Positions 40,001 through 64,000 of a stretch of 64,000 bases of DNA are shown piece by piece. Under the pieces are notes generated by a model, which was not told the origin of the DNA, searched no databases, and saw nothing but the letters and a program-made list of their open reading frames with translations. Numbering within the stretch: position 1 is the stretch's first letter; each line of letters begins with the position of its first letter. The DNA lies in contig CP119753.1 of assembly GCA_029319145.1 (NCBI GenBank), forward strand, positions 2,480,001 to 2,544,000, written 5' to 3'. The translations under genes were made by a program, and so were the position numbers. This stretch comes from Microbacter sp. GSS18. Its GTDB lineage: Bacteria > Actinomycetota > Actinomycetes > Actinomycetales > Microbacteriaceae.

Positions 40001-40040
40001 GCGAACAAGATACCCCGCGAGTGCCGTCCATGTCTTGCAA

Positions 40041-40059: not shown

Positions 40060-40128
40060 CACTGGTGTCCATTCACCCGTCCCCCGCGCCCGGTGGGACC
40101 CCGATGCGAACGAACCGAGGAGCCGCGA

Positions 40129-41873: not shown

Positions 41874-42352
41874 CCGACATCACTCCCGCTCCGCTTCGCA
41901 TCGTCATCGGCTGCGACGACGCCGGCTACGACTACAAGGAGATCCTCAAGAAGGACCTCGAGAACAGCGCCGGCGTCGCGTCGGTGGTCGACGTGGGCGT
42001 CGACGCCGACGGGCACACCCCGTACCCGAAGGTCGCGATCGAGGCCGCCCAGCAGGTCGCCGCGGGCGACGCCGACCGGGCGCTGCTGATCTGCGGCACG
42101 GGCCTGGGGGTCGCGATCGCGGCGAACAAGGTGCCCGGCATCCGCGCCGTCACCGCGCACGACTCGTTCTCGGTCGAGCGGGGCGTGCTGTCCAACAACG
42201 CCCAGGTCCTCACCATGGGCCAGCGCGTCGTCGGCATCGAACTCGCCCGCCGCCTCGTCCGCGAGTGGCTCACCTACCGCTTCGACGAGACCAGCGCATC
42301 GGCGGCGAAGGTCGCCGTGATCGGCGAGTACGAGACCACCGGCTCCTGCTGA
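41870..42352 (+). CDS. derI: RpiB/LacAB-type isomerase, probable D-erythrulose-4-phosphate isomerase
   Basis: The protein has 160 residues, the normal length for RpiB. It has [11 protein letters not shown] at the start, [20 protein letters not shown] with the family Cys, and a later [25 protein letters not shown]. In mycobacterial tetritol pathways an RpiB homologue (DerI) converts D-erythrulose 4-phosphate to D-erythrose 4-phosphate, and the kinase and TPI homologue beside it make that the most likely role. Ribose-5-phosphate isomerase activity is the alternative. ATGA overlap upstream and TGATG downstream. Confidence 0.82.
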
Positions 42353-44770: not shown

Positions 44771-44791
44771 GGTCATCGGAGACACGGACTC

Positions 44792-45547: not shown

Positions 45548-47289
45548 TGACCTGGCTCTCCCCCGGCCGACGGTGGCGCAGCGGCCCGTGGTCGCTCGAA
45601 CTTCGCGATGACGAGCTCGCCGACGTGGCGTTCGACGGCGGCACGGTGCTGCGCAGCATTCGTGCCGTCGTCCGCGACCGCAATTGGGACACCGCGCCCC
45701 TCGTCGTCGACGACATCCGCGAGACCGACACGACGCTCACGCTGCACGTGCACTCCGAAGCGCTCGGGTCGAGCTTCGCGGGGGTCGTGCGGGTCGAGGC
45801 GCGCGCCGACACCCTCGTCGTCGTCGCCGATCTGGAGTCGGCCGGGGACTTCCAGACCAACCGCACGGGGCTCGTGGTGCTGCACCCGCCCCAGCTGGCG
45901 GGGGTCGCGCTCGACGTGACGCATTCCGACGACACGACCGAGCACACCGCCTTCCCGGTGGCGATCAGCCCCCATCAGCCGGTGCTCGACATCGCCGGGC
46001 TCGTGTGGCACGACGGACGAGCCGTCTCGGTCGGCTTCGAGGGCGACGTGTTCGAGATGGAGGACCAGCGCAACTGGACCGATGCGTCGTACAAGACCTA
46101 CAGCAGGCCCCTGGCGCTGCCGTTCCCCTACCCGATCGCGGCGGGCGAGCGCGTGCGGCAGTCGATCACGGTGCGCGTCGCCGGGGCGGTCGAGGGTGCG
46201 CCCACGGATGCCGGTGCCACGCGGATCACCCTGGCACCCGCCGGCGCGGTGCCAGCGTTGGGGCTCGGCGCGTCGACCGCGCCCGATCCTGCTCCGGTCG
46301 GTCTTCCTCGCATCGGCGAGACGCTCCTGGTCGAGCTCGATCTGGGCACGCGCAACTGGCGCGCAGCCCTCGGGCGCGCGGCTTCGCGCGGCCTCCCGCT
46401 CGATGTACGGTTCGTGCTCGACCACAACACGTCGCGCGAGCTCGATGCACAGCTGGCCGACGGCGTCGCCGCCCTCGCGGATGCCGACGTGAGAAGGGTC
46501 GCGGTGTTCCAGATCGTCGGTCCGGCGCGGCATGTCTCGGACGAACCGGCTGTCGAGGCGCTGCGCACCGCGCTCGCGGACGCGGGCCTGGATGTCCCGG
46601 TCATCGGCGGCGCCCGGTCGCACTTCACCGAGCTCAACCGCGAGCGGCAGCGCCTTCCTGCCGACCTCGATGGTCTCGCCGTCACCACGACACCCCTCTT
46701 CCACGCCCTCGGCACCGAGCAGCTGATCGAGTCGGTCGCGATGCAGCGCCTCGTCGCACAGCAGTCGTTCATGTATGCCGACGGCCTGCCGGTGCACATC
46801 GGCCCGGTGTGCCTGCGGCCGCGCTTCAACGACGTCGCGACGACGCCCCAGCCGGGTCCCGCGCGCGACGACCTCGCAGGCGGCTACGGCGCCGAGGTCA
46901 TGGGCGCGAACGATGAGCGCCAGTCCGCCCGCGAGCTCGCCGCGTGGCTGATCGCCAGTGCGGCGGCGCTCGCAGTGCCCGGAGTGGCTTCGCTGACCTA
47001 CTTCGAGGAGTGGGGGCCGCGCGGCATCCGCTCCTCGACGGGCGAGCCGTACCCGGTCGCCGCCGCCGTGGAGGCTCTTGCCGCGTTGGCGGGCGGGGAG
47101 CTGCTCAGCGGCGACAGCCCCGACGGGCTCGTGTGGGCGATCGGAGCGGTGGGTCCTGATGGCACGACCACCGTCCTCGCGGCCAATCTCGACTCCGTCG
47201 CTCGGGACGTGCACATCGCGACGCCGGCGGGCCAGATCGACGTCCACCTCGCCCCGTTCGGACACGCCGTCGCGCACGCGGCTGACTGA
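45547..47289 (+). CDS. apnL: Probable D-apionolactonase
   Basis: The protein has 580 residues and no signal peptide. Recognisable segments include FQTNRTGLVVLHPP, then EGDVFEMEDQRNWTDASYKTY near 165-185, and a late SLTYFEEWGPRGI. As I recall, these are typical of the apionate lactonase family (ApnL), which opens D-apionolactone to D-apionate. The middle and C-terminal part looks like a glycosidase-type barrel (acidic YFEEWG) with a short beta end domain. It ends the operon. No other family is suggested by the motifs. Confidence 0.75.
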   Translation: MTWLSPGRRWRSGPWSLELRDDELADVAFDGGTVLRSIRAVVRDRNWDTAPLVVDDIRETDTTLTLHVHSEALGSSFAGVVRVEARADTLVVVADLESAGDFQTNRTGLVVLHPPQLAGVALDVTHSDDTTEHTAFPVAISPHQPVLDIAGLVWHDGRAVSVGFEGDVFEMEDQRNWTDASYKTYSRPLALPFPYPIAAGERVRQSITVRVAGAVEGAPTDAGATRITLAPAGAVPALGLGASTAPDPAPVGLPRIGETLLVELDLGTRNWRAALGRAASRGLPLDVRFVLDHNTSRELDAQLADGVAALADADVRRVAVFQIVGPARHVSDEPAVEALRTALADAGLDVPVIGGARSHFTELNRERQRLPADLDGLAVTTTPLFHALGTEQLIESVAMQRLVAQQSFMYADGLPVHIGPVCLRPRFNDVATTPQPGPARDDLAGGYGAEVMGANDERQSARELAAWLIASAAALAVPGVASLTYFEEWGPRGIRSSTGEPYPVAAAVEALAALAGGELLSGDSPDGLVWAIGAVGPDGTTTVLAANLDSVARDVHIATPAGQIDVHLAPFGHAVAHAAD

Positions 47290-51161: not shown

Positions 51162-52109
51162 CTATCCAGGCACGACGGCCAACTGGAGCGCGATGGCTCG
51201 TCGCTCCTCAACGGGCGAGCTCGGCGAGCCTTCGGCCACGGACATCGCGTAGAGACTGGCGAGCTCGTCATCCGTCAGCTCCGGCTGATGTGAGAGCCAC
51301 AGAGGGTCGGTGAGCGGCATCGATAGTTCGGCGCGGTGGAGATCGATCGTGACGTCAGCGCTAGCCGGGAGCGCATCGAACATCGATGGCCACGGTAGCG
51401 CGCCGGCGCCGATGGGTCTCATCAGTCGCGATAAGCCCTCGGAAGTTCGCGCCAGGGCGCAGTCGTCGACGAATACTGTGTGCACGAAAGGAGACGATCG
51501 CCGCGCTGCCGACAGCGGATCTTCAAGTCGGGCCACGACGTTGACTGGGCTGAAACCGAGCCAAAGCCCAGAGACACGATCACACAGTCGAATGGCCTCG
51601 AAGGTGGTCATCTCTTCGTGCGTCTTGAGAACGATCGGGCATGACGCCCATGACACAAGGCTGGTCAGAACCCCGCTCGTCCTGTCGAGTTGATCTGCCC
51701 ACGAAGGTGTCTCGCGGAACCTGTCTTCGTCAACGCCGACGACCACGTGGAACGAGGCGATCCCAAGGCTGTCGCCTGCATCGATCTGGGCAAACGGATG
51801 CTGCGGAGCATGCCGATCAAGTCCCCAGCTTCGCTCTACGCGATCGGGGTGGGCCGAGGGCAGCGCAGCCGTCAAGGTGATGCCCGAGGCGATTGCGAGC
51901 GCACCGATCTCCGAGAGCTCCCCCTTGTCGAGCGTGGGGCTGACTAGTCGAACCGACGGCAGCTGGATCGTGCCGAATCCCAATCTGGCCGCAGTTGCGA
52001 TCGCCGCCGGGAGATCGACACCCCCACCAGGAGGCGGTTGGTCGGGCAAGTCACGAAGGCAGATTCCCATCGGTCTGCTCCCACGAGCCCGCTCCCCGAG
52101 CTCAACCAT
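51162..52109 (-). CDS. Degenerate xylose-isomerase-like TIM-barrel protein
   Basis: The protein has 315 residues from 52109; a later ATG at 52070 (MGICLRDL) also fits. It aligns by eye with the OiaC-like protein at 43116: NVVARLEDPLSAAR against NVVARLERPRDCVE, and VFVDDCALAR against VHVKDFAFAR. Expected metal ligands are changed (Glu to Lys in VLKTHEE, Asp to Ser in FSPVN, His to Phe in VFVDD), so it may not bind the usual metal or may not be catalytic. It lies 74 bases after the ABC ATPase stop on the same strand and is probably the last gene of that operon. Confidence 0.65.
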   Translation of the reverse strand: MVELGERARGSRPMGICLRDLPDQPPPGGGVDLPAAIATAARLGFGTIQLPSVRLVSPTLDKGELSEIGALAIASGITLTAALPSAHPDRVERSWGLDRHAPQHPFAQIDAGDSLGIASFHVVVGVDEDRFRETPSWADQLDRTSGVLTSLVSWASCPIVLKTHEEMTTFEAIRLCDRVSGLWLGFSPVNVVARLEDPLSAARRSSPFVHTVFVDDCALARTSEGLSRLMRPIGAGALPWPSMFDALPASADVTIDLHRAELSMPLTDPLWLSHQPELTDDELASLYAMSVAEGSPSSPVEERRAIALQLAVVPG

Positions 52110-52183
52110 GGCCAGCGAGACTGAAGCCCGTCTCCAACGACATACGGGGCGGCAGGGCGCCTGAGTCGGAGAACTCGATCACT

Positions 52184-53017
52184 TTACGGCTGAGGCGCAC
52201 TTGTTACTCCTTCTGTAGTGTGGGAGTTCCCGCGCGTAAGCCAGTCACTCGATGGGTCGGGAATCGGAACAGCTTCAAGGAGTTCACGAGTGTAGGGATG
52301 ACGAGGCGCGGCGAAGATCGTCTCAGCGGGCCCGCTCTCGACAATCCGTCCAGACTGCATGACGTACACGTGGGAGCACAGGTAGCGGACCACCGCGAGG
52401 TCGTGGGCAATGAACAGGATCGACAGTCCCAGTTCACGGTGCATTTCCTTGAGCACATTGAGCACCTGAGCCTGCACGGAGACATCGAGGGCGGAGACTG
52501 CTTCGTCGCATACGAGGAGGTCGGGCTCCACGGAAAGGGCGCGTGCGATGGCGATACGTTGACGCTGTCCCCCCGAGAATGATGCGGGATATCGGCTCGC
52601 GTCCGCCGCGTTCATCCCGACCATCTCGAGGAGCTCCCCGACGCGGCGTCGGCGGGCGCTCGATGTCGGGTGCAGTCCGTGGACGCGCATGCCTTCTTCG
52701 ATGATCTGGGCCACGGTGAGGCGCGGTGAGAGGCTACCCATCGGGTTCTGGAAGACCATCTGCGTCTTGCGTCGATAAGCCTTGAGATCCGCCCCGCGCG
52801 CGGTCAGGACGGACGCGCCATCCTGGACAACCTTGCCCGCGTCGGCACGTTCGAGCCTCATCACGATGCGCAGCAGGGTCGATTTCCCGGACCCTGATTC
52901 GCCGACGAGGCCTACGACCTGTCCCGTCTGGACCTCCAGACTCACGTCGTCGAGTGCAACGACGTCCGGTTTTCCGAGGGTGCGGAACCGCTTGCTCACA
53001 TTGTTGATTTCCAGCAT
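52184..53017 (-). CDS. ABC transporter ATPase (OppF type)
   Basis: The protein has 277 residues with Walker A GESGSGKST, Q-loop MVFQNPMGSLSP, signature FSGGQRQR, Walker B LLVCDEAVSALD (Ala in place of the usual Pro after Glu) and switch AHDLAVV. The C-terminus HPYTRELLEAVPIPDP is typical of this group. It pairs with the ATPase upstream, to which it is joined by a TGATG overlap. It powers import of the cargo of the SBP at 55911. Confidence 0.92.
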   Translation of the reverse strand: MLEINNVSKRFRTLGKPDVVALDDVSLEVQTGQVVGLVGESGSGKSTLLRIVMRLERADAGKVVQDGASVLTARGADLKAYRRKTQMVFQNPMGSLSPRLTVAQIIEEGMRVHGLHPTSSARRRRVGELLEMVGMNAADASRYPASFSGGQRQRIAIARALSVEPDLLVCDEAVSALDVSVQAQVLNVLKEMHRELGLSILFIAHDLAVVRYLCSHVYVMQSGRIVESGPAETIFAAPRHPYTRELLEAVPIPDPSSDWLTRGNSHTTEGVTSAPQP

Positions 53018-53928
53018 CAGTCGACCACTCCCGCGACAAGGCCCGAACGGGCGACGAAATGACCTTCGGCAACTTCCACCAGGAGCGAGTTCTCGTCATC
53101 AGGTTCGGGGATGGTGGACCGGTCGAGTGGGGACAGGGGCGCGTCGGAATCGATGCGCGGGACGGCTCGGAGAAGCGCCTGCGTGTACGGGTGCCGAGGG
53201 TTGCCGAAGAACGACTCGACGGGCGCGTGCTCGACAATGCGTCCGCGGTACATGACAGCGACGCGGTCTGCGAAGCCAGCAACGATGCCGACGTCGTGGG
53301 TGATCAGGAGGACCGCCAGACCTCGGGACGCGGCGGCGTCGGACATGACTTGGAGCACCTGCTTCTGCACGCGTACGTCCAGCGCCGTCGTCGGTTCGTC
53401 TGCGATGAGGAGGTCAGGCTCGCCTGCGAGCGCCATCGCGATGACGACTCGCTGGCGCATTCCGCCGGAGAACTCGTGCGGGTATGAGATTGCCCGAAGG
53501 CCCGGTTCGGGGACGCCGAGCTCGGCGAGGATTCTCACTGTCGCCGCCCGCGCCTCGCGGGGGTTCATTCCGCGGGCTCGGTACAGAGGGGTGAGGTGCT
53601 CGCCGATGCGGCGCAGCGGGTCGAGCGAGCCCAGGGGGTCCTGGAATACCATGCCGACTTTGCGTCCACGCACCCGGCGCAGCTCACGTTCTGACATGGC
53701 GAGCACCTCCGCGCCGTCCACAAGGATGCGGCCGGTTGCATCGATACCGTCATCCAGCCCGAGGACTGCGCGGGCGGTTACGGACTTGCCTGAACCGGAT
53801 TCGCCGACTAGCGCGACGCGCTCGCCGCGATCGACCGAGAGATCGACGCCGTGAACGAGCGGAACCGGTCCGCGCGGGCTGCGCGCAGTCAACCGCAGGT
53901 CTTCTATTCGCAGAATCGAGTCATCCAC
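53017..53928 (-). CDS. ABC transporter ATPase (OppD type)
   Basis: The protein has 303 residues from a GTG at 53928. Walker A is GESGSGKSV, Q-loop MVFQDPLGSLDP, signature FSGGMRQR, Walker B LLIADEPTTALD and switch THDVGIV. It is one of two ATPases of the importer. One base separates its start from the permease stop upstream. Confidence 0.92.
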   Translation of the reverse strand: MDDSILRIEDLRLTARSPRGPVPLVHGVDLSVDRGERVALVGESGSGKSVTARAVLGLDDGIDATGRILVDGAEVLAMSERELRRVRGRKVGMVFQDPLGSLDPLRRIGEHLTPLYRARGMNPREARAATVRILAELGVPEPGLRAISYPHEFSGGMRQRVVIAMALAGEPDLLIADEPTTALDVRVQKQVLQVMSDAAASRGLAVLLITHDVGIVAGFADRVAVMYRGRIVEHAPVESFFGNPRHPYTQALLRAVPRIDSDAPLSPLDRSTIPEPDDENSLLVEVAEGHFVARSGLVAGVVD

Positions 53929-53929
53929 G

Positions 53930-54865
53930 TCAGTGTCCTCTCATGCGCGCGACCTGTCGGTGGTGGAACGCATCCCCGACGAGGGCGAAGCCCATCGATG
54001 TCACCGCGATGGCGAGCCCGGGAAAGAATGCCGCCCACCACGCGGTCGTTATGTAGCTCTTCGCGGAGAGCACCATCGCACCCCATTCGGCAGACGGCGG
54101 CTGGGCACCGGCTCCGATGAACGACATCGCACCGATGAGCAGGATCGTCATTCCCATGTCCCCGGCCCATTTGACCCACAGTGCCGGCAGGGCATTCGGG
54201 AGCACGTGTCGCGTCATCAGTGCGGGGGTATGGACGCCGAGCGTGCGTGCCGCCTCCACATAGGGCTCGTGCATCGTTTCGCGCATGATCCCCGCGAGCA
54301 ACCTGGCTGTGATCACCCAGCCTGTTGCGGCAAGCGCGACGATGGATGACCAGAGGGACGGCCCCATCAGGGCGGCGATCAGGAGGGCGAAGATGAGTGC
54401 AGGGAATGCCTGCATGACGTCGACACCACGCATGATCAGGTCACCGAGCCACTTCGGCGAAAGGACGGCGCCCACAGCGACCATGACGCCGATGATCGAG
54501 TAGAGCACGACGATTGCACCGGCTGCGAACAGTGTCGTCCGGGCTCCGACCAGTACGCGCCAGAAGATGTCACGACCCTGGTCGTCAGTGCCGAACCAGT
54601 GCTCCGCGCTGGGCGGAAGCCGTGCGTCCATGATGTGGGAGGTATAAACATCGGGCGCGATGAGCGGTCCAATGATCGCCGCCAGTACAGCCACGATGAC
54701 GATGACCGCTCCGAGAGCATCAAGGAAGCGTCCGGTGGTCTGGTGGCCGCCGCGCCATCGGCGCCGGGTCTCCGTGAGCCGGGCGAACCGTTCGTGGGCG
54801 TTCATTCGCCGCGGAGCGGACGATTCGTCCGGACTCGTCACGGGAGGAGATTCAAGCTGGGTCAT
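53930..54865 (-). CDS. ABC transporter permease (OppC/DppC type)
   Basis: The protein has 311 residues. A long cytosolic N-terminus precedes the first helix (ALGAVIVIVAVLAAIIGPLIAP), followed by the LGTD/FGTDDQGRDIFWRVL loop and the EAA motif EPYVEAARTLGVHTPALMTRHVL. It forms the second half of the membrane channel. It belongs to the minus-strand five-gene importer. Confidence 0.92.
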   Translation of the reverse strand: MTQLESPPVTSPDESSAPRRMNAHERFARLTETRRRWRGGHQTTGRFLDALGAVIVIVAVLAAIIGPLIAPDVYTSHIMDARLPPSAEHWFGTDDQGRDIFWRVLVGARTTLFAAGAIVVLYSIIGVMVAVGAVLSPKWLGDLIMRGVDVMQAFPALIFALLIAALMGPSLWSSIVALAATGWVITARLLAGIMRETMHEPYVEAARTLGVHTPALMTRHVLPNALPALWVKWAGDMGMTILLIGAMSFIGAGAQPPSAEWGAMVLSAKSYITTAWWAAFFPGLAIAVTSMGFALVGDAFHHRQVARMRGH

Positions 54866-54866
54866 G

Positions 54867-55907
54867 TCAGATTCCCATCTCCGCGCGCCGCAGCTGAGGG
54901 TCGCGGGCCGTCTGAACGATGTCGACTAGGACATTGGTGACAACGACGATGACGCCGATGGCGAGAACCCCGCCGATGACGACAGCCGAGTCCTTCTGTG
55001 CGACGGCGTTCGTCAGCATGGACCCGAGACCATCGCGCGCGAAGACCGACTCGACCAGGACAGCGCCACCGAAGAGGCTTCCGAACTCGATGCCGACCAA
55101 GATGAGCGTGGGCGTCACGACGTGCGGGACGATGTTTCTTCGCAGGACCTGGGATCGGCTCTGGCCGCTTGCGCGCGCGACCATGACGAAGTCGCGCTGG
55201 GCGATCGACATGAACTCGGCGCGCAGAATCCGGTAGGCGGGTCCGATGAACGCGAGGCTGAGCACGGTGGCAGGAAGAATGATGTGCGCGAGAGCATCGC
55301 TCACGGCTAGCGCGTCGCCGGCGAGCATCGCGTCCAGCAGTGTCGAGCCGGTGACCCTCGGGACGGAGACAGCGCCGATCGTGTAGCGGCCCGAGATGGG
55401 GAACCAGCCCAACAGCGATCCGAACAGTCGCTGGAACATCAGGGCGAGCCAGAATGTCGGCAGACCGCAGATGAGAATGATGAGGAATCGCCGCCAGGAC
55501 TCTCCGCGCCCCGTCTGACGAAGGGCCGAGAGCGCAGCCAAGGGGAGAGCGATCGCGATCGACAGGATGACGCTGACGACAACGAGCTCTGCGGTGATCG
55601 GAAGCGCTGCGGCGATCTCGTCCCCTACCGGGCCACGGCTCGCGCTGGATATTCCGAGGTCACCTGTCCCGATTCGGCCGAGGAATGCGATGTATCTCTG
55701 GAGGAGCGGCCCCGAGAGACCGAGCTGCTCGCGGAGCTGCTCGATCTGCTCGGGGCTCGCCCCCGGGCCGGCCGCCGCCACCGCTTCGTCACCGGGCGTG
55801 ATCTGGATCAGCACGAAGACGGCTGTCAGCAGCACGAAGATGGTGAGCGCAGCGCCCGCGAGCTTGCGCAGCGAGAAGATGGCGATGCGTGCCGGTGCGG
55901 TGGTCAT
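54867..55907 (-). CDS. ABC transporter permease (OppB/DppB type)
   Basis: The protein has 346 residues and six membrane helices. The first part LVQITPGDEA-like motif (VLIQITPGDEAVAAAG) and the EAA loop FVMVARASGQSRSQVLRRNIVPH are typical of DppB. It is separated from the neighbours by one and three bases, so the operon is compact. Confidence 0.92.
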   Translation of the reverse strand: MTTAPARIAIFSLRKLAGAALTIFVLLTAVFVLIQITPGDEAVAAAGPGASPEQIEQLREQLGLSGPLLQRYIAFLGRIGTGDLGISSASRGPVGDEIAAALPITAELVVVSVILSIAIALPLAALSALRQTGRGESWRRFLIILICGLPTFWLALMFQRLFGSLLGWFPISGRYTIGAVSVPRVTGSTLLDAMLAGDALAVSDALAHIILPATVLSLAFIGPAYRILRAEFMSIAQRDFVMVARASGQSRSQVLRRNIVPHVVTPTLILVGIEFGSLFGGAVLVESVFARDGLGSMLTNAVAQKDSAVVIGGVLAIGVIVVVTNVLVDIVQTARDPQLRRAEMGI

Positions 55908-55910
55908 CGG

Positions 55911-57473
55911 TCAGTCAGCGACCCTGAGGTCGGCGATCGCGAGCTGGCCGGACGGCAGGCGCGGTGCGCTCGACGGAGCAGCGATCGCGTCGCTGAACGC
56001 CCACGAGCTGTCAGTCGAGTACAGAGGTAGCGACGCGTTGTCCGCATCCAGGATCGTCTCGATCTCCTGGATGAGCCCGCACTGCGCATCCGCGTCCGGC
56101 GTCGCCTTGACCTCTGCGATCAGCGCGTCCACATCCGGGTTGCTGTAGGCAGGCTTGTTCGTGCCCACCGCGGCCGAGTCGTACACCTGCGTGATCATCA
56201 CTCCAGGATTCGGGACGGGTAGCCCCTCCCCGGCAAGCATCATCTCGGGAATCGTCGACCAGTCGGTGAGCGAGGTGAGGTAGTCCGCGTAGGCGATCGG
56301 CTCGAGGGTGAGCTCGACGCCGATCTCGGCCAGGTTGGACTGAAGAAGTGTCGCCTCCTGCACCTGCTCCTCGAAGGCGGGCTGGTAGCTGAGGGTCAGG
56401 GTCAGATCCGAAAGCCCAGCATCGGCAAGGATCTGCTGCGCCTCGACGAGATCCTGATGCACCTCGGGCAGATCGGCCTCACAGGACAGTCCCGCAGGGA
56501 GCATGGTCGTGTTGAGCTGTCCGGCACCATTTCGGATGCTCGCGAGCCCGCCTTCATAGTCGTACGCGAGGCGAAGGGCTTCCCGCACTGCAGGGTCGGC
56601 TGTTGCACCGGTGGCGTTGTTGAGCCACACGATGACCATCGAGGAGCCGACTGGCACGACTGTGTAGCCTGCGTCCTCGACCGACGCAATGTCGGCCGCG
56701 GAGACACTCGTCGCGTCGACCGTACCAGCCAGCAGCTCGTCACGAGATGCCGACAGCTCGTCGATGCGTCGGAGAACGACAGTCCCGGGACGGTCGTCCG
56801 CGAACTCGAAGTAGTCATCGAATCGGGCGTACGTGATCGTCCCGGAATCGCTCGACTCCAGCGAGTATGGACCAGATCCGGCATCGTTGTTGAGCAACCA
56901 ACTCTGTGCGTTGTCCGAGCCTTCGTTCTCGGACACGAGTGCGGAGTTCACGATGTACACCCGCGAGAGCTTGGAAGCGAAGAGGGCGTCCGGCGCTTCG
57001 AGGGTGATGGTGAGCGTCGCGTCGTCAACCGCCTCGGAGCTGGAGTAGCCGGCCATCTGCCCGACGATTCCGGTTCCGATGGTCTGGATCCGGTCGAGGG
57101 TGTACTTCGCATCGGCCGCGGTAAACGGCGTGCCGTCGTGGAACACGACATCGTCGCGCATCGTCAGTGTGATCTCGGTGGCGTCGTCGTTGTACGTGAA
57201 GTCGCTTGCAAGCGAGCCAACGAGGGCGCCGGTGTCGTCGTACGTGAGGAGGGTGTCGTACATGGGGCTGACGGCCGTGTCCACCTGGAGGTAGCTCGAC
57301 TGCGAAGGGTCGAGTGTCGTGACCTCGTTGCGGTTGGAAACGACGATCGTGCTCCCGGCGGCGTCGGACCCGTCTTCGGCGGCTGGGGCTTGGGCGGCGC
57401 ATGCAGAGATGACAAGGGCGGATGTCAAGAGCAGAGGCACGGAGGCGAGGTAGCGATTGCGTGACTTCGGCAC
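55911..57473 (-). CDS. ABC transporter substrate-binding lipoprotein (SBP family 5)
   Basis: The protein has 520 residues from a GTG at 57473, chosen because AAGGA lies upstream and the first residues form a lipoprotein signal ending VISAC. The body has YDTLLTYDDTGALVGSLA, RDDVVFHDGTPFTAAD and AGSGPYSLES, all SBP_bac_5 motifs. It should capture the small-molecule cargo outside the cell. The linked amidohydrolases suggest the cargo is an amide-rich N-heterocycle or its conjugate rather than a peptide. A GTATAC-centred operator sits 50 bases upstream. Confidence 0.9.
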   Translation of the reverse strand: MPKSRNRYLASVPLLLTSALVISACAAQAPAAEDGSDAAGSTIVVSNRNEVTTLDPSQSSYLQVDTAVSPMYDTLLTYDDTGALVGSLASDFTYNDDATEITLTMRDDVVFHDGTPFTAADAKYTLDRIQTIGTGIVGQMAGYSSSEAVDDATLTITLEAPDALFASKLSRVYIVNSALVSENEGSDNAQSWLLNNDAGSGPYSLESSDSGTITYARFDDYFEFADDRPGTVVLRRIDELSASRDELLAGTVDATSVSAADIASVEDAGYTVVPVGSSMVIVWLNNATGATADPAVREALRLAYDYEGGLASIRNGAGQLNTTMLPAGLSCEADLPEVHQDLVEAQQILADAGLSDLTLTLSYQPAFEEQVQEATLLQSNLAEIGVELTLEPIAYADYLTSLTDWSTIPEMMLAGEGLPVPNPGVMITQVYDSAAVGTNKPAYSNPDVDALIAEVKATPDADAQCGLIQEIETILDADNASLPLYSTDSSWAFSDAIAAPSSAPRLPSGQLAIADLRVAD

Positions 57474-57520
57474 GGTGTGGTCCTTCGGGCAGAGGGATGG
57501 ATGTTTGGTGGAGCGGTGGC

Positions 57521-57534
57521 AACTGTATACAGAT
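57521..57534. promoter_or_regulatory. GTATAC operator, site 1
   Basis: CTGTATACAG (57523-57532) is a perfect 10-bp palindrome, 50 bases upstream of the binding-protein start. It shares GTATACAGWT with three other sites in this cluster and has the TnGTATACnA form used by FCD-type GntR regulators. Confidence 0.7.
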
Positions 57535-57630
57535 CGGTGTTTCGAGTGTGGGGCGCATTGTTTCGTTCGGATGAACAAAGCAGTCAAAAGGGGCTAAGAG
57601 CGGCGCCACGCACATCCGCACCGATTCCGC

Positions 57631-57644
57631 CGGTATACAGTTCT
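57631..57644. promoter_or_regulatory. GTATAC operator, site 2
   Basis: GGTATACAGTTC lies about 30 bases upstream of the racemase-family start at 57668. It is the second copy in the 194-base divergent promoter region. Confidence 0.65.
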
Positions 57645-57667
57645 GTGACATCCAAGCCGGAGAGAGC

Positions 57668-58450
57668 ATGAAGATCCTTGTCGTGAACTGCAATACGTCG
57701 ACCGACACCAGTCGCGCCATCGGCGCGATCGCCCGCGCCACGGCTTCTGCCGGCACCGAGATCGTGATGGTCCAGCCCGGGTGGGGTGTCTCCTCCGCAG
57801 AGGGCTATTACGAGAGCTACGTCAGCGCCGCGGCGGTTCTGGATGCGCTATCGGAACACGGCCCCGTCGCGGATGCGATCGTGTTGGCCGGGTTCGGCGA
57901 ACACGGACGCGAAGGTGCTAGGCAACTGTTGACTGCCCCGGTGGTCGACATCACGGAGGCTGCCGCGATTGCGGCACAGCTGGTCGGCCACCGCTACGGT
58001 GTCGTCACCACCCTGTCCACGACGGTTGCCGGAATCTGGGACAGCCTGACACTGTCGGGGATGAGCGCCCGATGCGTCGGCGTACGCGCCGCAGGCATCC
58101 CCGTGCTCGACATCCACGATGACGTCCACGAAACGGCGGCAGCCCTCGCGACCGAAGCGGAGATCCTTGTCGCGACCGGCGCCGATGCCATCGTGCTGGG
58201 CTGCGCGGGAATGGCCGGACTCGACGTCGCACTCGAGCAGCGCGTAGGGGTGCCGGTGATCGATGGCGTTCAGGCGGCGATCGGACTGTCGGAGACGCTT
58301 GTACGAATGGGAAAGAGCACGAGCAAGGTAGGCCCATACGCACCGCCCAATGCACACAAGCCGCGGCCCGGCTGGCCCCTCCGCCAATCCGCGATCGTCG
58401 CTCTAGACATCGACGCGCTCACGACGACCAACACACCTGGGAGCTCCTGA
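57668..58450 (+). CDS. Asp/Glu/hydantoin racemase superfamily protein with one catalytic Cys
   Basis: The protein has 260 residues. The fold motifs are ILVVNCNTST at the start, IVLAGFGEHG at 71-80 and IVLGCAGMAG at 176-184. Racemases of this family use two cysteines; here the first is Gly75 and only Cys179 remains. Arylmalonate decarboxylase, a member of the superfamily, has the same arrangement, so decarboxylation or a one-base isomerisation is more likely than racemisation. It is coupled to the next gene by TGATG and sits in a cluster with a ring-opening amidohydrolase, whose product may be a malonate derivative. Confidence 0.8.
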   Translation: MKILVVNCNTSTDTSRAIGAIARATASAGTEIVMVQPGWGVSSAEGYYESYVSAAAVLDALSEHGPVADAIVLAGFGEHGREGARQLLTAPVVDITEAAAIAAQLVGHRYGVVTTLSTTVAGIWDSLTLSGMSARCVGVRAAGIPVLDIHDDVHETAAALATEAEILVATGADAIVLGCAGMAGLDVALEQRVGVPVIDGVQAAIGLSETLVRMGKSTSKVGPYAPPNAHKPRPGWPLRQSAIVALDIDALTTTNTPGSS

Positions 58451-60240
58451 TGATCAACCCCGACCGGATGGCCTCCGCGCCCGGGAGATTTCACGTCTCC
58501 GAGGCGAACCACTGGCCCGAAGCGCGCGCGCTGGCACAGTTCCCAGAGCGACTCAGCATCCTCGACTCCACGATCCGAAAGACCTACTTCACCGCTGGGA
58601 ACGCGACCAGCCAACTGGGATTCGCACGCATCGCGGAGGCCCTGGTCGAACTCGGTGTCTCAGAGACATGTCTAAACGTGACCTGGGCAGGGGATGACGT
58701 ACCGACACCCCAGGACTGGGAGCTGATGACCACGGTTCTGGACGCGAAACTCCCCCTGCGAGTCAACGTGTGGTCTGATGCATTGCTCGGCAACGGGAGG
58801 GATCCGCAGCCGATCCACCACCTCGACGCGCTGCGAACGCTCGTCGACGCAGGCGCAACCCAGATCGCCCCGGGAATCGTGCCAGCCCCGGATCCCGATG
58901 CCGAGAAGCGGCAGATGCAGCAACTCGATGAGCATCTCGCGCTGGCCGCCGAACTCGGCGTGACGACAACGATCACACTCGCGCAAGTCGGACTGCGCAA
59001 CTTCGACGACCTCGTTCGTGTAGCCAAGCACGCGGTCTCCGCCGGCGCCGCACGCCTCGACCTCATGGACTCGACGAGCTCCATGTCACCCGAGGCCATG
59101 CGCATATTCGTGCGCCGGTTTCGGGCGCACGTCGGCGACGTCGATGTGACGATGCATGTCCACGACGAATTCGGACTCGCTACCGCGGCGGCCCTCGCGG
59201 CCGCCTCCGAAGGCGCCTCCCCCGATGTCTCGATGAACGGGATGTCCTACCGCGCCGGTTTCGCTCCACTTGAGGAAGTCGTCCTCGCACTCGAGGTCCT
59301 CTACGGCGTGGACACGGGTATCGCGCTGGAGAAGATCGCACACGTCTCACGCGTCGTAGCGGCGGAATCCGGGCTTCCCATCCCTCAGCTCAAACCGCTC
59401 ACCGGATCCTTCGCACATCTCAAGCACATGCCCGGCGACGCAGCATCCGCAATCCAATCCGGAGACAGCGCGTTTCCGCCCATCTCTCACGGCATCGTGC
59501 CGTCACGGATGGGAGCTCACGTCGAATGGGTGTGGGGTGCTTCGAGCAGCCTCGCGCAGACCCGGGCGCTGGCATCGGACGCTGGCATGGATCTGACTCT
59601 CGCCGAGACGCGCGCGGCACGCGCCGCCCTCGACGCGGCTGTTGCGGGGATACCGAGGTATCCCCGCTGGCTACGGCCCGAGGACGCAAGGGCGGTGCTC
59701 GTTCGAACCGTGACAGGCATGCGTGGGGGCGCCGAGGCACGCGCCGCCCAGGACGTGGTTTCGGATGCAGTGGCGGCTCCTGACATCGCCGCGGCGATCG
59801 TCGATGCGCTGGGACAGTCCGCGTTCGACGCGGTGCAAGTGGACAGCGTCCGTCCCACCGTCGAGGCCGTCATCGGCGCCCTAACCGTTGGTCGGTTCAT
59901 AGATCTACTCGAGGACTTCCGCCGATTCGGCGAGCACGCAGGCGGGGCACGACCCGCACTCTCCGACGCGGAGGAAAGCGCCATCAACCACTCAGATGAT
60001 CAGGAACGTCGCCGGCTCGCCGAGACGGCACGAGAGTACGAGGCACGGTTCGGATTCCGGGCGGTTGCTCTTGCCGACGGGCGAACCGCACAAGAGGTGA
60101 CCCGAGAACTGGTGGCGGCCCTGAGCCGCAACGCCGCAGAAGAGCTTGCCCGAAGTCGTGCAGCCGTCACGGATATTCTGTCCGCACGCATTACCCGAGC
60201 AGCCGGGGCCCATTCGACGAGTATGGCAGGGGGAGCCTGA
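58450..60240 (+). CDS. HMGL-like lyase/aldolase with UraD-like C-terminal region
   Basis: The protein has 596 residues. Residues about 35-330 match the HMGL-like/pyruvate carboxyltransferase barrel: ILDSTIRKT (Asp39, Arg43), and metal-binding HVHDE with His236 and His238, followed by MNGMSYRAGF. Such enzymes cleave or form carbon-carbon bonds with an acyl-CoA or keto acid. A second region follows, and about 528-580 (YEARFGFRAVALADGRTAQE, then LSRNAAEELARSRAAVTDIL) resembles the C-terminal helices of OHCU decarboxylase (UraD). The catalytic HP motif of UraD is not seen. The fusion is unusual. It overlaps both neighbours. Confidence 0.7.
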   Translation: MINPDRMASAPGRFHVSEANHWPEARALAQFPERLSILDSTIRKTYFTAGNATSQLGFARIAEALVELGVSETCLNVTWAGDDVPTPQDWELMTTVLDAKLPLRVNVWSDALLGNGRDPQPIHHLDALRTLVDAGATQIAPGIVPAPDPDAEKRQMQQLDEHLALAAELGVTTTITLAQVGLRNFDDLVRVAKHAVSAGAARLDLMDSTSSMSPEAMRIFVRRFRAHVGDVDVTMHVHDEFGLATAAALAAASEGASPDVSMNGMSYRAGFAPLEEVVLALEVLYGVDTGIALEKIAHVSRVVAAESGLPIPQLKPLTGSFAHLKHMPGDAASAIQSGDSAFPPISHGIVPSRMGAHVEWVWGASSSLAQTRALASDAGMDLTLAETRAARAALDAAVAGIPRYPRWLRPEDARAVLVRTVTGMRGGAEARAAQDVVSDAVAAPDIAAAIVDALGQSAFDAVQVDSVRPTVEAVIGALTVGRFIDLLEDFRRFGEHAGGARPALSDAEESAINHSDDQERRRLAETAREYEARFGFRAVALADGRTAQEVTRELVAALSRNAAEELARSRAAVTDILSARITRAAGAHSTSMAGGA

Positions 60241-60908
60241 TGGACTCGCGCCTCTCGACCCAGATCTACGACACGCTTCGAAAGCGAATCATTGTCGGAG
60301 AGATTCCGCAGGGGACGCGCCTCGCTGAGGAGCGTCTGGCCAAGGAGCTCGACGTTTCCCGCGTCCCCCTGCGCGAGGCCATTCCGCAGTTAGAGGTCGA
60401 TGGCTTCGTCGCGTCTCTTCCGCGTCGGGGGTCCGTTGTCACACGGTGGCGCACGGCCTTGGTGCACGATCTGTTCGATGCCCGCCTCGCACTTGAGCCG
60501 GCGGCGGCACGTCGCGCTGCCGCCCGTGCGCGCGAAGGAGCGTCGATGGAGGCGCTCCTCAAGGTGCAGAGCGAATCGGAGCTCGAGCTTGCCGCGGGCG
60601 ATGAGCTGGGAATGGCGACGGCCAACACGCGCTACCACCAGGCCCTCGTCGACGCCGCCGGCAACGAGCTGCTCTCCGGGCTCATGAGAGCGACGAGCGG
60701 GCGCATGTCGTGGCTGTTCTATCTCACGAGGCAGCGCGACCAGAGTGTCGCATGTGAGGAGCATCGAGAGATCACGAGCGTCATCATGTCTGGGAACGAG
60801 CGACTCGCCGAGGCTGTCGTGTACGCCCACATCGAGGCGGGCCGTGTTCCCTCACTCGCTGCGATGAAGACGATCTTGGCCGCGGAACCGGCCGACACCG
60901 TCGCCTGA
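60240..60908 (+). CDS. GntR-family regulator (FCD domain)
   Basis: The protein has 222 residues. The winged helix is at about 5-70 (QIYDTLRKRIIVGEIPQGTRLAEERLAKEL, then SRVPLREAIPQLEVDGFV), followed by a helical FCD-type domain (HDLFDARLALEPAAARRAA, then NTRYHQALVDAAGNELL). It is third in the plus-strand operon (TGATG overlap). FCD-type regulators often bind TnGTATACnA, and four such sites lie in the two promoter regions of this cluster, so it is the likely controller. Confidence 0.88.
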   Translation: MDSRLSTQIYDTLRKRIIVGEIPQGTRLAEERLAKELDVSRVPLREAIPQLEVDGFVASLPRRGSVVTRWRTALVHDLFDARLALEPAAARRAAARAREGASMEALLKVQSESELELAAGDELGMATANTRYHQALVDAAGNELLSGLMRATSGRMSWLFYLTRQRDQSVACEEHREITSVIMSGNERLAEAVVYAHIEAGRVPSLAAMKTILAAEPADTVA

Positions 60909-60925
60909 CAACGGGCCGACCGGGA

Positions 60926-62383
60926 TTACTCTGCGTGTGCCGTCTGGTAGCTCGGCGGGAACAGCTCATCAGGCGGAGAAGGTTCCGCGGTGCGCGCTCC
61001 ATAGCCGGCGCGAAGCTTGCGGAAGATTCGCTGCGCCGCGTCCTGCAGCGAGGCCATGTCGACGCCGACCAACTCGCCGTCGAGGACGCGCACCTCGCCA
61101 CCGACCATGGTCATCGTCACTGCGCGCGCGGAGGAGTGCTGGATCATCGTTCGGATCGGATCGTCCACGATCCCATCCCGAACGTTACCGAGTCTGACTG
61201 CTGTCAGGTCTGCTGTAGCACCCGCGCTGATTCGTCCGAGGTCCGGGCGGCGGAGGGCCGTCGCTCCGCCGAGCGTTGCCGCATCGAGATAGTCACGATG
61301 TGAACCGGCATCGAGCCGCCCCGCGAGGATCTTCGCCACGGAGGAACCCATGTCCATGCCACGCAGCAGATCTGGCGGAAATGAGTCGGTGCCGAGGGCA
61401 ATCTTCACTCCAGCCGCCCGGTATTCGTCGAAGCTCTCTAAAGCCGCGCCGTAGTGCGCAGACGTGAGGGGACAGTGAACCACCGTTGCCCCCGCATCCG
61501 CGATGCGCTGCACCGATCCACCACCAGCCGATCCAACCCGCGAGTTCTCATCGGTGTAGATACCGTGCGGAATGAGCAGACGTTCCGTGAGCAGGCCTGC
61601 GCTCTCCAGGAGGTCGAGCGGTGTCGTCCCGCGCTCGCGCAGCAGGCGGAGTTCCTCCAGGCCCTGCAGGCAATGAAGGCGCACCAAAGTGTCGAGGGCG
61701 TTGGCTGACCTTCCCGTGCGGACAAGCACCTCGTCCGTCAGCGTCTCGATGCGGCACGGCAGCAGGACACCGGTGATGAGGGGTGACTCGAACTGGCGCG
61801 TCCACTCGATGAACCGGATCGCATCGTCCAGGCCATCCTCGCCGCGCCTCGGTTCCCAGTGCAAGTGCAGCTCGTCGTCGTCGACGACCGGCACGGCGCT
61901 GCGATAGCTCGGCCCAAGGAAGACCCGGAGCCCCAGGTCTTGCGCCTCCTGCGCCATCTGGAGCGCGTCTTCGAACGTCTCAGCCCACTCCGAGTGCACC
62001 TCGGAGGCGATGGGCATCGCGGTTGTGACACCGTGGAGCAGCAGTTGCGCGAATGCGTATCGCCGCATCATGGCGCGTTCGCCGCTTGTGAGCACGTGCT
62101 GTCGCTCGGGGTCGGCGGCATGCCGCGACGACCACTGCAGTCTGCGGGCGTCGGATGGAGAGTGCCACGAATCGAGGATGGCGTGGTCGATGTCACTCAG
62201 TGCATCCAGATCTATGAATCCTGGCAGAAGCACAGCATCGCCCAAGTCGATGTCGACATCCTCGCCGCGCGATGGACGGACTTCCGCGATCTGGTCGCCG
62301 GCGACGATGACGTCGCCGTTCTCCAGCATGCGGTGCTCGCCATCCTCGTGGGTAAGCACCCAACGTGCGCGCACGACCGTCAT
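60926..62383 (-). CDS. Amidohydrolase (TRZ/ATZ deaminase-like) with altered metal motif
   Basis: The protein has 485 residues with the amidohydrolase frame: a beta-sandwich start (VRARWVLTHEDGEHRM), PGFIDLDALSDIDHAIL at 54-70, RLHCLQGLEELRLL, and GTDSFPPDLLRGMDMG in the barrel end. The usual PGF(I/V)xxHxH metal motif lacks both histidines here. The later His in LHCLQG, HGIYT and Asp in GTDS could still bind one metal. It may be a deaminase, a metal-poor hydrolase or inactive. It overlaps the upstream amidohydrolase by ATGA. Confidence 0.8.
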   Translation of the reverse strand: MTVVRARWVLTHEDGEHRMLENGDVIVAGDQIAEVRPSRGEDVDIDLGDAVLLPGFIDLDALSDIDHAILDSWHSPSDARRLQWSSRHAADPERQHVLTSGERAMMRRYAFAQLLLHGVTTAMPIASEVHSEWAETFEDALQMAQEAQDLGLRVFLGPSYRSAVPVVDDDELHLHWEPRRGEDGLDDAIRFIEWTRQFESPLITGVLLPCRIETLTDEVLVRTGRSANALDTLVRLHCLQGLEELRLLRERGTTPLDLLESAGLLTERLLIPHGIYTDENSRVGSAGGGSVQRIADAGATVVHCPLTSAHYGAALESFDEYRAAGVKIALGTDSFPPDLLRGMDMGSSVAKILAGRLDAGSHRDYLDAATLGGATALRRPDLGRISAGATADLTAVRLGNVRDGIVDDPIRTMIQHSSARAVTMTMVGGEVRVLDGELVGVDMASLQDAAQRIFRKLRAGYGARTAEPSPPDELFPPSYQTAHAE

Positions 62384-63585
62384 CGGAGCGATCCCTTGTC
62401 CGCGACGACGCGCCCCTCGTGGATAACTGTGCGGTCGGTCGGACGATCCATGACAGCCGACGTCGCTGTCTCCGCGTCAAGCAGCACGAAGTCGGCGGCA
62501 TCCCCAACCCCGAACCCGCGTTCCGGACCCGTTGGCGTATCGGAGTCGATCACCGCTGCGCCACCGAGCGTCGCCGACAGCAGCGCGCCCTCGATGTGTT
62601 CGTCGCGACGCATCCCATTGGTGTAGGCCAGCATCCACGTGCGTTCGAGCATGTCCGTGTTCCCGTACGGCGACCAGTAGTCACGCTGTCCGTCCTGACC
62701 GAGACCGAAGCGGATTCCATACTCGGCGATCTCCAAGAATGGCAGTGGTGATCGACCCGCGGGCGCCACAGTGGTGAGGGCGATGTCCAGTTCGGCGAGG
62801 TCTTCCAGGACTTGCTGTCGGGCCACGTTCGGCAGATCCGCGAGGAAGAAGGCGTGCGCGATGGTCACCCGTGACCGATAGTCCAGCGCACGCACCCGCT
62901 CGATGATCTTCCGCGCCGTGAAGAGCCCCAGCTCTCCCGGCTCGTGAAGATGGATGTCGACCCGCGCATGATGGCGCTCCGCGAGCTCGAACACGATGTC
63001 GAGGTGCTGCCGCGGGTCGCCATCCAAGGCGCACGGGTCGATCCCGCCGACGATGTCGGCGCCGCTTCGCAGCCCGGCTTCCATCAGTGCGGGAACCCCC
63101 GGCTCGAGAAGGAGCCCTGCCTGCGGGAATGCGACGATCTCGACCCGGCTGCGTAGGGCGTGCTCGTCGCGCGCGGCGAGGACACCCTCAAGGCGCTCGA
63201 GGCGACAGTCCGCATCGACCTGAGCATACGAACGCGCCCGAGTCATCCCGTTCGCAATGGCGCGCCCCAGGGTCTCTGTCGCGCGATCAGCGACCGAGGC
63301 TTCCGCAGAACGCCAGTTGGCGCGGTCGTTCATGATCTGATTCCAGATCGGCCCCGGTTCAGCCGAGTGCGGCCGGAACGGAAGACCTATGCGCGTCGAG
63401 TCCAGGTGAACGTGCGCATCGGTGAACGAAGGGACGATGATCCGACCGGCTCCATCGACATCGACATCACTACGCGCGGCCGATACGTCATGAGGCTTGA
63501 TCTCGACCACACGTCCATCGCGAACGGAGATGTCGCGGGCAGCGCCTCCCCATGGTCGAGCATTCCAGATGGTGATGTCTGACAT
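62380..63585 (-). CDS. Cytosine-deaminase-like amidohydrolase
   Basis: The protein has 401 residues from the ATG at 63585. Metal ligands are His58 and His60 in TDAHVHLD, His in DIHLHEPGELG, and Asp in GLGQDGQRDYWSPYG, the last a close variant of the GQDDI..PWYPLG loop of cytosine deaminase (CodA). AHAF supplies a further His. It would deaminate or hydrolyse a pyrimidine, triazine or related ring in the cytoplasm. It leads a two-gene operon; the GTATAC site 3 lies nine bases before its start. Confidence 0.85.
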   Translation of the reverse strand: MSDITIWNARPWGGAARDISVRDGRVVEIKPHDVSAARSDVDVDGAGRIIVPSFTDAHVHLDSTRIGLPFRPHSAEPGPIWNQIMNDRANWRSAEASVADRATETLGRAIANGMTRARSYAQVDADCRLERLEGVLAARDEHALRSRVEIVAFPQAGLLLEPGVPALMEAGLRSGADIVGGIDPCALDGDPRQHLDIVFELAERHHARVDIHLHEPGELGLFTARKIIERVRALDYRSRVTIAHAFFLADLPNVARQQVLEDLAELDIALTTVAPAGRSPLPFLEIAEYGIRFGLGQDGQRDYWSPYGNTDMLERTWMLAYTNGMRRDEHIEGALLSATLGGAAVIDSDTPTGPERGFGVGDAADFVLLDAETATSAVMDRPTDRTVIHEGRVVADKGSLR

Positions 63586-63591
63586 TCCAGC

Positions 63592-63606
63592 TCCGTATAC
63601 AGTTTC
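63592..63606. promoter_or_regulatory. GTATAC operator, site 3
   Basis: CCGTATACAGTTT is centred about 12 bases upstream of the amidohydrolase ATG and abuts its GGAG ribosome site, so a bound regulator would block elongation or initiation. Confidence 0.65.
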
Positions 63607-63653
63607 TCGTTCAGTTCGATGGTCTACGGAAGAATAGGGCACGAATGTTGCGC

Positions 63654-63668
63654 GCTTGTATACAGATC
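63654..63668. promoter_or_regulatory. GTATAC operator, site 4
   Basis: TTGTATACAGATC lies 63 bases beyond site 3. On the minus strand a possible -10 box TATTCT (63631-63636) lies between the two sites, so site 4 falls near the -35 position. Confidence 0.65.
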
Positions 63669-63818
63669 CGCCATCACGTCGCCCTCGACGAGCGATCCGC
63701 CGAATCCCTGCAGTCCCGATGAGGACCCGGGGCCGCGAGCGACGCAGCCGCTGTGTGGCATGCGCGCCAGATAGCGCCAATCGAGCGGTTGGAGGGGTTC
63801 GCTTTCCTCACGACCGGC

Positions 63819-64000
63819 TCAATCGCCGACGTCGACGATGACCGCGAGAGTTCCACCTCCAGGCGGCCCCTGATGGGTCGCCGATCCCGAGATGTAGATG
63901 AGATTGTCCTGCAGGTGTCCCGCGAACATGCCAGCGACTGCCGCCTTGACTTCGTTGCCGTAGTTGCGGTTCTCGACAACCTGGCGACGTCCGCGCAACT
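63819..64000 (-). CDS. Ring-opening amidohydrolase (cyanurate hydrolase/barbiturase family), C-terminal part
   Basis: The last 60 codons are inside the window, and the start lies beyond base 64000. The visible end reads LIYISGSATHQGPPGGG and then TLAVIVDV before the stop. The SGxxxHQGPxGGGPVAVI pattern is the C-terminal signature of the cyanuric acid hydrolase/barbiturase family, whose members open s-triazine or pyrimidine-trione rings through Ser-Lys pairs. Barbiturase yields ureidomalonate and cyanurate hydrolase yields carboxybiuret; the fragment cannot tell these apart. It is on the same strand as the two amidohydrolases and 234 bases upstream of them. Confidence 0.75.
   Translation of the reverse strand, partial: LRGRRQVVENRNYGNEVKAAVAGMFAGHLQDNLIYISGSATHQGPPGGGTLAVIVDVGD

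Follow-up and report, generated by a model that had tools for sequence, protein, structure and literature searches.

A rare yet recurrent gene cluster of Microbacter sp. GSS18 that looks like one regulon, probably for import and degradation of a cyclic ureide or imide

The AtzB-AtzC-AtzD route, the lower pathway of atrazine degradation, consists of two amidohydrolase steps followed by ring opening. In the DRE-TIM enzymes the Asp or Glu following the catalytic Arg is a metal ligand, and in OHCU decarboxylase (UraD) the His of the HP motif is catalytic. Here a stretch of 64,000 nucleotides (the window; positions 2480001-2544000 of contig CP119753.1) of Microbacter sp. GSS18, the genome of which is a single contig of 4,033,441 bases, was analysed for a gene cluster with an ABC importer, a racemase-family protein (RAC), a lyase/synthase-like protein with a UraD-like tail (HMGL), a GntR regulator, two amidohydrolases (AMH1 and AMH2), a TIM-barrel protein (TIM) and a cyclic amide hydrolase (BARB). 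The family of BARB contains the cyanuric acid hydrolases (CAH; AtzD/TrzD) and barbiturases of the 'Toblerone' fold, in which one Ser-Lys dyad is the only absolutely conserved one according to the available part of PMC4051656; in the Moorella enzyme this dyad is Ser231-Lys161, and Arg193 is a ligand of one substrate carbonyl (PMC6557486, available part). The FCD-type GntR regulator Atu1419, which was studied crystallographically, binds pairs of ATGTATACAT at spacings of 190 or 109 bp, looping the DNA (PMC7797058, available part).

We consider it rather probable that the cluster is one catabolic regulon, likely repressed by its GntR protein, which takes up a cyclic ureide or imide N-heterocycle and degrades it to products of the ureide or glyoxylate level. 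This reading draws on gene content, shared operators, recurrence and the catalytic residues kept or lost. The initial annotation of the window had listed a five-gene importer, a racemase, an HMGL-UraD fusion, a GntR regulator, two amidohydrolases and a cyanurate hydrolase/barbiturase-family enzyme; all of these genes were found to be present by Pfam or NCBIfam, so that its observation was confirmed, and its interpretation was partly supported. The features are as follows, in window coordinates, the operators being given without strand.

51162..52109, minus strand: TIM, sugar-epimerase-like TIM barrel (AP_endonuc_2) of a variant subtype in which Lys/Ser replace the Glu/Asp of most aligned relatives at two positions
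52184..53017, minus strand: ABC ATPase, DppF-type (ABC_tran and oligo_HPY)
53017..53928, minus strand: ABC ATPase, DppD-type (ABC_tran and oligo_HPY)
53930..54865, minus strand: ABC permease, DppC-type (BPD_transp_1)
54867..55907, minus strand: ABC permease, DppB-type (BPD_transp_1 and BPD_transp_1_N)
55911..57473, minus strand: SBP, family-5 solute-binding lipoprotein (SBP_bac_5, 191.1 bits; start and lipobox-like N terminus picked by eye)
57522..57532: first operator (ACTGTATACAG) in the divergent promoter between SBP and the racemase, motif match
57631..57641: second operator in this divergent promoter, at a distance of 109 bp from the first
57668..58450, plus strand: RAC, allantoin-racemase-like member of the Asp/Glu/hydantoin racemase family (PF01177, 145.4 bits)
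58450..60240, plus strand: HMGL-like lyase/synthase domain fused to a UraD-like (OHCU_decarbox) domain (Pfam)
60240..60908, plus strand: FCD-type GntR regulator (PF00392 and PF07729)
60926..62383, minus strand: AMH1, amidohydrolase of the PRK06151 'chlorohydrolase family' (NCBIfam, 536.6 bits, cut-off 416)
62380..63585, minus strand: AMH2, PRK05985/AtzC-like amidohydrolase (NCBIfam, 414.7 bits, cut-off 408)
63593..63603: operator 1 of the AMH2 promoter, motif match
63656..63666: second operator of the AMH2 promoter, at a distance of 63 bp from the first
63819..64000, minus strand: 3' end of BARB, cyclic amide hydrolase (PF09663), the whole gene reaching window-equivalent 64961
65095-65105 and 65158-65168 (window-equivalent): operators of the BARB promoter, 63 bp apart

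The importer, the racemase, the HMGL-UraD protein, the FCD GntR, the two amidohydrolases and BARB appear to belong to a single regulon, because operators are common to the cluster promoters. The heptamer TGTATAC gave 6 strand matches in the 64 kb against 0.22 expected, a number reached by none of 100 shuffles. The longer pattern WCTGTATACVR gave 9 strand matches at 8 places of the whole genome (4.03 Mb) whereas the backwards pattern gave 1. Six of the 8 places were found to form three pairs, at the promoters of SBP/racemase, AMH2 and BARB, which upholds both the shared operators and the importer-plus-hydrolase regulon of the initial annotation. The other two places fall close to the beginning of an ABC permease open reading frame that is present in two copies, at the junction with the preceding permease frame, and are presumably coding sequence. 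The cluster GntR would bind the paired TGTATACA-type operators. An ABC permease/permease/ATPase block was observed twice in this genome, at about 2848000-2851000 and 2876000-2879000 (L095 and L096), some 28 kb apart; the printed protein starts of the two copies were identical for the 285-residue permease and the 294-residue ATPase.

For comparison, 79 loci were kept from 173 HMGL relatives, of which the first 24 (L012-L035) formed the close family; the remaining loci, with matches of 27-41% to a part of the query, resemble ordinary synthases. The presence of genes was counted by tblastn with the window proteins, and a home-made gene caller based on GC3 missed or misframed some genes. In the two Devosia loci (L032 and L033) all 4 motif places each were found directly before TIM, the SBP/racemase-family gene and BARB, followed by L030 with 3 of 3 places before TIM and SBP/racemase, L012 with 2 of 2 between SBP and RAC, and L014 with 2 of 2 before HMGL. 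Among additional loci, the motif is found 28 bp ahead of the called TIM start in L136, but within genes in L130, L134 and L135.

These operators also bear on a locus for uptake of peptides, opines or sugar acids with the hydrolases as incidental neighbours, to which we give a low probability. The DppBCDF type of the importer would suit such a locus, as would the two structure models, which were used for fold only and with Foldseek family lists as second looks at matches: the fold of TIM was nearest to sugar 3-epimerases and that of HMGL to homocitrate/citramalate synthases. However, BARB and AMH2 stand under the same paired operators as the importer, and the importer, TIM and BARB recur together with those operators in the Devosia loci. 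A PDB sequence search with TIM gave nothing at E 0.1. The TIM proteins were observed to fall into two subtypes, with Glu/Asp or Lys/Ser at the putative metal-ligand positions, and L014 (14757-16837) contains both side by side.

The gene running out of the window had been read as a cyanurate hydrolase or barbiturase. The contig past base 64000 was found to contain the rest of a gene of this ring-opening amidohydrolase family, complete to 64961 and matching PF09663 with 209.9 bits (cut-off 25), without a second match in the genome. The refuting case set by the initial annotation, a gene of another kind at this place, is thereby excluded and the family assignment stands, whereas the function was not upheld, BARB falling in a separate clade. 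BARB seems to be the outer edge of the cluster because the next called gene (L002 2265-2972) was judged unrelated by eye. Its best PDB match was barbiturase 5hwe (E 4.2e-53). Besides two PDB sequences, the alignment covered 25 and the tree 41 of 120 listed proteins, these being the best 120 of 180 matches. In the resulting 43-row tree the cluster-type BARB proteins grouped in a single clade with support 100/98, to which neither barbiturase 5hwe nor CAH 6dhj belonged, the clade branch having 29 rows on one side and 5hwe outside. The window protein was found to retain K52, R63 and the dyad K170/S238 in the alignment, and the Lys and Ser of the third domain by motif only; the dyad was conserved in 19 of 19 clade rows and the family's conserved Arg52, which is R63 in the window protein, in 18. 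In this alignment the CAH Arg193 position was Ser throughout the 19 clade rows; 5hwe had Asn there, where the available part of PMC4051656 gives Gln for the barbiturase subgroup. The CAH Ser83 position contained Thr in 14 of the 19 rows, the window protein included, and 16 of 19 carried an insert of about 6 residues; the LDDSDVHWHR segment of the window protein was changed and 3 residues shorter. Other family members of the order share 32-36% identity (30 genomes), and in 19 fetched loci (28-35%, tblastn) the Arg193 position was Asn in 17 and Gly in 2. Clade and residues do not support BARB as either a cyanuric acid hydrolase or a barbiturase.

Ordinary s-triazine (cyanurate) catabolism, for which the family names of AMH1, AMH2 and BARB recall the AtzB/AtzC/AtzD trio, is highly improbable. 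A cyanurate, being a ring of N and carbonyl carbon only, is unlikely because a racemase and a C-C lyase are present, both of which require a carbon-bearing substrate, and the Ser at the Arg193 position speaks against it as well. Biuret or allophanate genes of the AtzE/F/H type were not found among the cluster genes, the one AtzH-amidase fusion lying 0.64 Mb away, and 72,556 plasmid records contained no match to HMGL at E 1e-30 or to BARB at E 1e-20. The triazine that had been named among the candidate substrates is therefore unlikely, and an s-triazine or a plain barbiturate fits poorly as the substrate.

The HMGL-UraD protein was found to combine kept and altered catalytic motifs. Lys44 occupies the Asp/Glu metal-ligand position after the catalytic Arg in 36 of 36 aligned rows; it aligns to the Glu of 6ktq, by which sequence alignment it is placed in the active site. 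The HxH metal motif (H236 and H238) was invariant in the same rows. The lyase named in the initial annotation was thus retained in its fold and HxH, but a normal metal enzyme is not indicated with a Lys at a ligand position. The tail likewise is a UraD-like domain by Pfam (OHCU_decarbox, 58.4 bits, cut-off 24) but doubtful as a decarboxylase, since of 49 fusions (proteins longer than 540 amino acids) only 11 keep the HP-motif His, while 38, among them the window protein with Phe, have lost it; NCBIfam UraD_2 gave only 39.7 bits against a cut-off of 139.4. A UraD-like domain was fused to HMGL in 9 of the 24 loci and was the next gene in 4.

The racemase had been described as a single-cysteine protein, and Gly was found at its first Cys position. 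Its best PDB match was allantoin racemase 5lfd (E 3.9e-67), with which RAC shares the stretch G-x-G-E-H-G-R-E, a Gly in place of the first Cys, a Glu three residues on and the second Cys. In AllR, a catalytic role was reportedly ascribed to this Glu by Cendron in 2016. The structure 3qvj contains Cys at the first position, unlike RAC and 5lfd. The available part of PMC8142540 lists the bases of allantoin racemase as Cys/Cys, which would fit the Cys type (3qvj) and not the Gly/Glu type (5lfd). RAC carries the AllR pattern and is predicted to be allantoin-racemase-like. The racemase-family genes next to HMGL in L029, L030 and L033 share only 25-30% identity with RAC.

L012 and its extension L130 contain the RAC-HMGL-GntR block followed by a second GntR, an AMH2 relative (33%), carbamate kinase, UraD, M24, glycerate kinase, an AP_endonuc_2 gene (hydroxypyruvate-isomerase-like by eye), glyoxylate carboligase, tartronate semialdehyde reductase, DUF3830, a carbamoyltransferase-like gene (below cut-off) and allantoinase. 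Scores above cut-off were obtained for AllB, glyoxylate carboligase, tartronate semialdehyde reductase and carbamate kinase; glycerate kinase and UraD were assigned by Pfam. A ureide is the likeliest class of intermediate because of the racemase, the UraD relatives and this allantoin/glyoxylate island. A special case of the regulon reading would be a purine side route, in which an oxidised or substituted purine is degraded, BARB attacks a urate-like intermediate at its six-membered ring in the manner of 5-hydroxyisourate (HIU) hydrolase, the UraD-like domain acts on an OHCU-like product and the racemase on an allantoin-like hydantoin. It would account for the UraD domain fused or adjacent to HMGL, the AllR-like RAC and the allantoin island, as well as for the stand-alone UraD of L028, the purine/cytosine-type permease of L019 and the CMP/dCMP-type deaminase adjoining BARB in L134. 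We regard it as unlikely: the HP-motif His is lost in most fusions, the window included, and at 3.18 Mb the genome was found to contain a urate-to-allantoate set with HpxO, UraD and AllB above cut-off, and also with an HIU-hydrolase-type gene (PF00576), a permease (PF02133) and an amidase of the hydantoinase/carbamoylase family. The HMGL step would also be without a place, and we know of no purine route that includes one. Uricase (PF01014) was not found in the genome, in which the HpxO-type urate hydroxylase is present. In the purine/allantoin locus at 3.186 Mb (L092 14703-16328) an AtzH-like domain was observed fused to an amidase domain, a link of cyanurate-type to ureide chemistry.

Both amidohydrolases had been described as deaminase-like, a description that AMH2 sustains and AMH1 does not. 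In AMH2 the canonical metal motifs HxH, H, H and D were kept, as read by eye in the alignment; its best PDB match was 6nbo (E 2.4e-73), followed by AtzC structures at E of about 1e-40. AMH1 was found without HxH, the window protein and five relatives (6 of 6) containing D-A-(L/V)-(S/A)-D, and D-A-L-S-D of AMH1 contrasts with D-A-H-G-H in the relative AMH3 of L022. A second special case of the regulon reading, an amino-pyrimidine or barbiturate route resembling AtzB-AtzC-AtzD, would have the two amidohydrolases strip amino groups, BARB open a 5-substituted barbiturate, and the racemase and HMGL process a substituted ureidomalonate; 5-hydroxybarbiturate from plant divicine or isouramil may serve as an illustrative example only and is not data. 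Since a substituted ureidomalonate would present a stereocentre and a beta-keto-type carboxylate, it would give roles to the racemase and HMGL, and AMH1 and AMH2 adjoin BARB, AMH2 is closest to AtzC-type structures and BARB to barbiturase in the PDB. We nevertheless hold this route to be doubtful, with BARB outside the barbiturase/CAH clade, AMH1 without HxH, and few relatives with AMH2 or AMH1 in the neighbourhood of HMGL (2 and 5 of 24, respectively). AMH1 as a stand-in for BARB was suggested by the two not co-occurring within 10 kb in any of the 24 loci (5 and 7 of 24, P 0.15) and was rejected, as L135 and L136 carry both and the count by itself was weak.

The locus is rare yet recurrent in quite unrelated bacteria. 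TIM was found in 22 and SBP in 18 of the 24 HMGL loci, and BARB in cis in 7 (L015, L025, L028 and L031-L034). Of the 17 genomes without BARB in cis, 4 contain a BARB of at least 44% identity elsewhere (L012 60%, L030 59%, L024 59% and 45%, L020 44%), the 44-45% proteins of L020 and L024 being assigned to the clade by identity and not by tree; in L030 and L024 it lies on the HMGL contig, about 20 and 34 kb away. Second BARB loci (L134, L135 and L136) carry TIM, with importer genes 50-60% identical in L134 and lower-identity importer genes, AMH1 and an FCD GntR in L135 and L136. Among the matches listed (the best 120 of 128 for HMGL), 7 of 85 clade BARB proteins, the window's own included, lie on a contig of the same length as that of an HMGL protein, against 0 of 33 non-clade ones. 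In surveys that score only candidates from a first look, HMGL (E 1e-30) and clade BARB each occurred in a single genome among 396 of the order, and HMGL (E 1e-30) in a single one among 396 of the phylum, in each case the own genome; none of the 17 same-genus genomes listed in the order survey contained it.

Several genes were observed near HMGL or BARB in relatives. Arylmalonate-decarboxylase-like genes occur in L019, L029, L030, L032 and L033 (PF17645 confirmed in L019 and L030, the rest by similarity clustering), creatinase/M24-type genes recur in L012, L020, L024 and L033, and DUF6282 amidohydrolase-like genes lie in L014 (7742-8875) and L135 (1279-2286; 272-1267 similar by eye).

A number of findings weigh against a single regulon for such a heterocycle. 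The operator motif has no match in 17 of the 24 HMGL loci, the sole match of L031 lies inside SBP, and that of L020 precedes an M24 gene which itself lies upstream of SBP. AMH1 is near HMGL in L013, L014, L022, L026 and L029 only, and AMH2 in L012 and L029. The family-5 SBP is absent from L017, L018, L021, L023 and L027 (Actinomadura/Actinocrispum) and from L035, which has a partial HMGL match only and no cluster; family-5 importers, moreover, also carry peptides and other solutes. Clade BARB is absent from 13 of the 24 HMGL genomes (5 with an ordinary member of about 35%, 8 with none), and ring opening by BARB is therefore not obligatory. BARB proteins of 44-45% occur without other cluster genes in the 18 kb fetched for L137 and L138, and the own genome already has the full urate-to-allantoate route elsewhere.

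For the regulon reading, we infer the substrate class, the step order and the chemistry of every step as follows. The ring would be pyrimidine-trione-like or purine-derived and would probably bear exocyclic amino groups as well as a carbon substituent. The compound would be taken up by the family-5 ABC importer, and its exocyclic groups would be removed by AMH2 (AtzC/cytosine-deaminase type), perhaps by AMH1 too. The Ser238-Lys170 dyad of BARB would then open the ring to a ureido acid with a stereocentre, which the AllR-like racemase would set, followed by cleavage or decarboxylation of a C-C bond by the HMGL/UraD-like protein, in which Lys44 would replace the usual metal ligand. The TIM-barrel protein may isomerise the product towards allantoin/glyoxylate metabolism, and the FCD GntR would probably repress the genes through the paired operators.

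The cluster was found to have a GC content of 0.65-0.66 against 0.705 (standard deviation 0.021, 2-kb windows) in window 1-51000 and 0.687 in the 15 kb past BARB, and the lower value fits acquisition from outside. Searches of the window for tRNA and Rfam families at gathering scores gave no match. At 39263-47289 a separate sugar-acid-like catabolic block was seen by eye, with FCD-GntR-like, dihydroxyacetone-kinase-like and triose-phosphate-isomerase-like genes, a TIM isomerase and dehydrogenases.

The regulon is real, recurrent and, as far as we are aware, uncharacterised, its operators being the evidence of co-regulation; its parts belong to known families, and four of them (BARB, HMGL, the UraD tail and AMH1) contain altered catalytic motifs. 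The gene combination had been said to match no known pathway, and no description of the set was found in the open-licence literature searched. Tentatively, and with less than even confidence, it may represent an undescribed natural cyclic-ureide pathway of Actinobacteria and Rhizobiales, in which a third functional clade of the Toblerone fold would open a ring other than cyanurate or plain barbiturate, and an HMGL, coupled to a UraD domain without the decarboxylase His, would work with an invariant Lys (free, as Schiff base or carbamylated) instead of its metal ligand. If true, clade BARB would point to a natural role of the Toblerone-fold family. As this distinct clade belongs to a recurring regulon that has six operators and an importer of its own, the question can be put to the test with a single GntR, SBP and hydrolase. 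The Lys for a ligand in HMGL and the His-less UraD domain are two further active-site rewirings in one genetic context.

Compared with known systems, BARB is like the CAH/barbiturase enzymes in family, dyad, Arg63 and Lys52, but unlike CAH it does not contain the full three sets of Ser, Lys and Arg that suit a substrate of three-fold symmetry (Arg193 to Ser, Ser83 to Thr), and it falls in a well-supported clade of its own, apart from barbiturase 5hwe. HMGL shares its fold, HxH and Arg with the DRE-TIM enzymes (homocitrate, isopropylmalate and citramalate synthases, HMG-CoA lyase and hydroxy-oxovalerate aldolase) but differs by Lys44 and by the UraD-like C-terminal domain; the latter resembles OHCU decarboxylase in the Pfam domain and a kept Glu but contains Phe for the HP-motif His. 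RAC resembles AllR of Pseudomonas fluorescens (5lfd) in its Gly/Glu pattern and second Cys, whereas the host genome contains a second AllR-like racemase (L091 at 3.01 Mb), 58% identical to RAC. The regulation resembles that of the Atu1419 regulon of Agrobacterium fabrum in the palindrome ATGTATACAT and in paired sites, the spacings here being 109, 63 and 63 bp, but Atu1419 controls hydroxycinnamate genes (PMC7797058, available part). The logic of two amidohydrolases followed by ring opening is common to the AtzB-AtzC-AtzD pathway and this cluster, which differs in being without biuret/allophanate genes and in having its own importer, racemase, HMGL/UraD protein and TIM.

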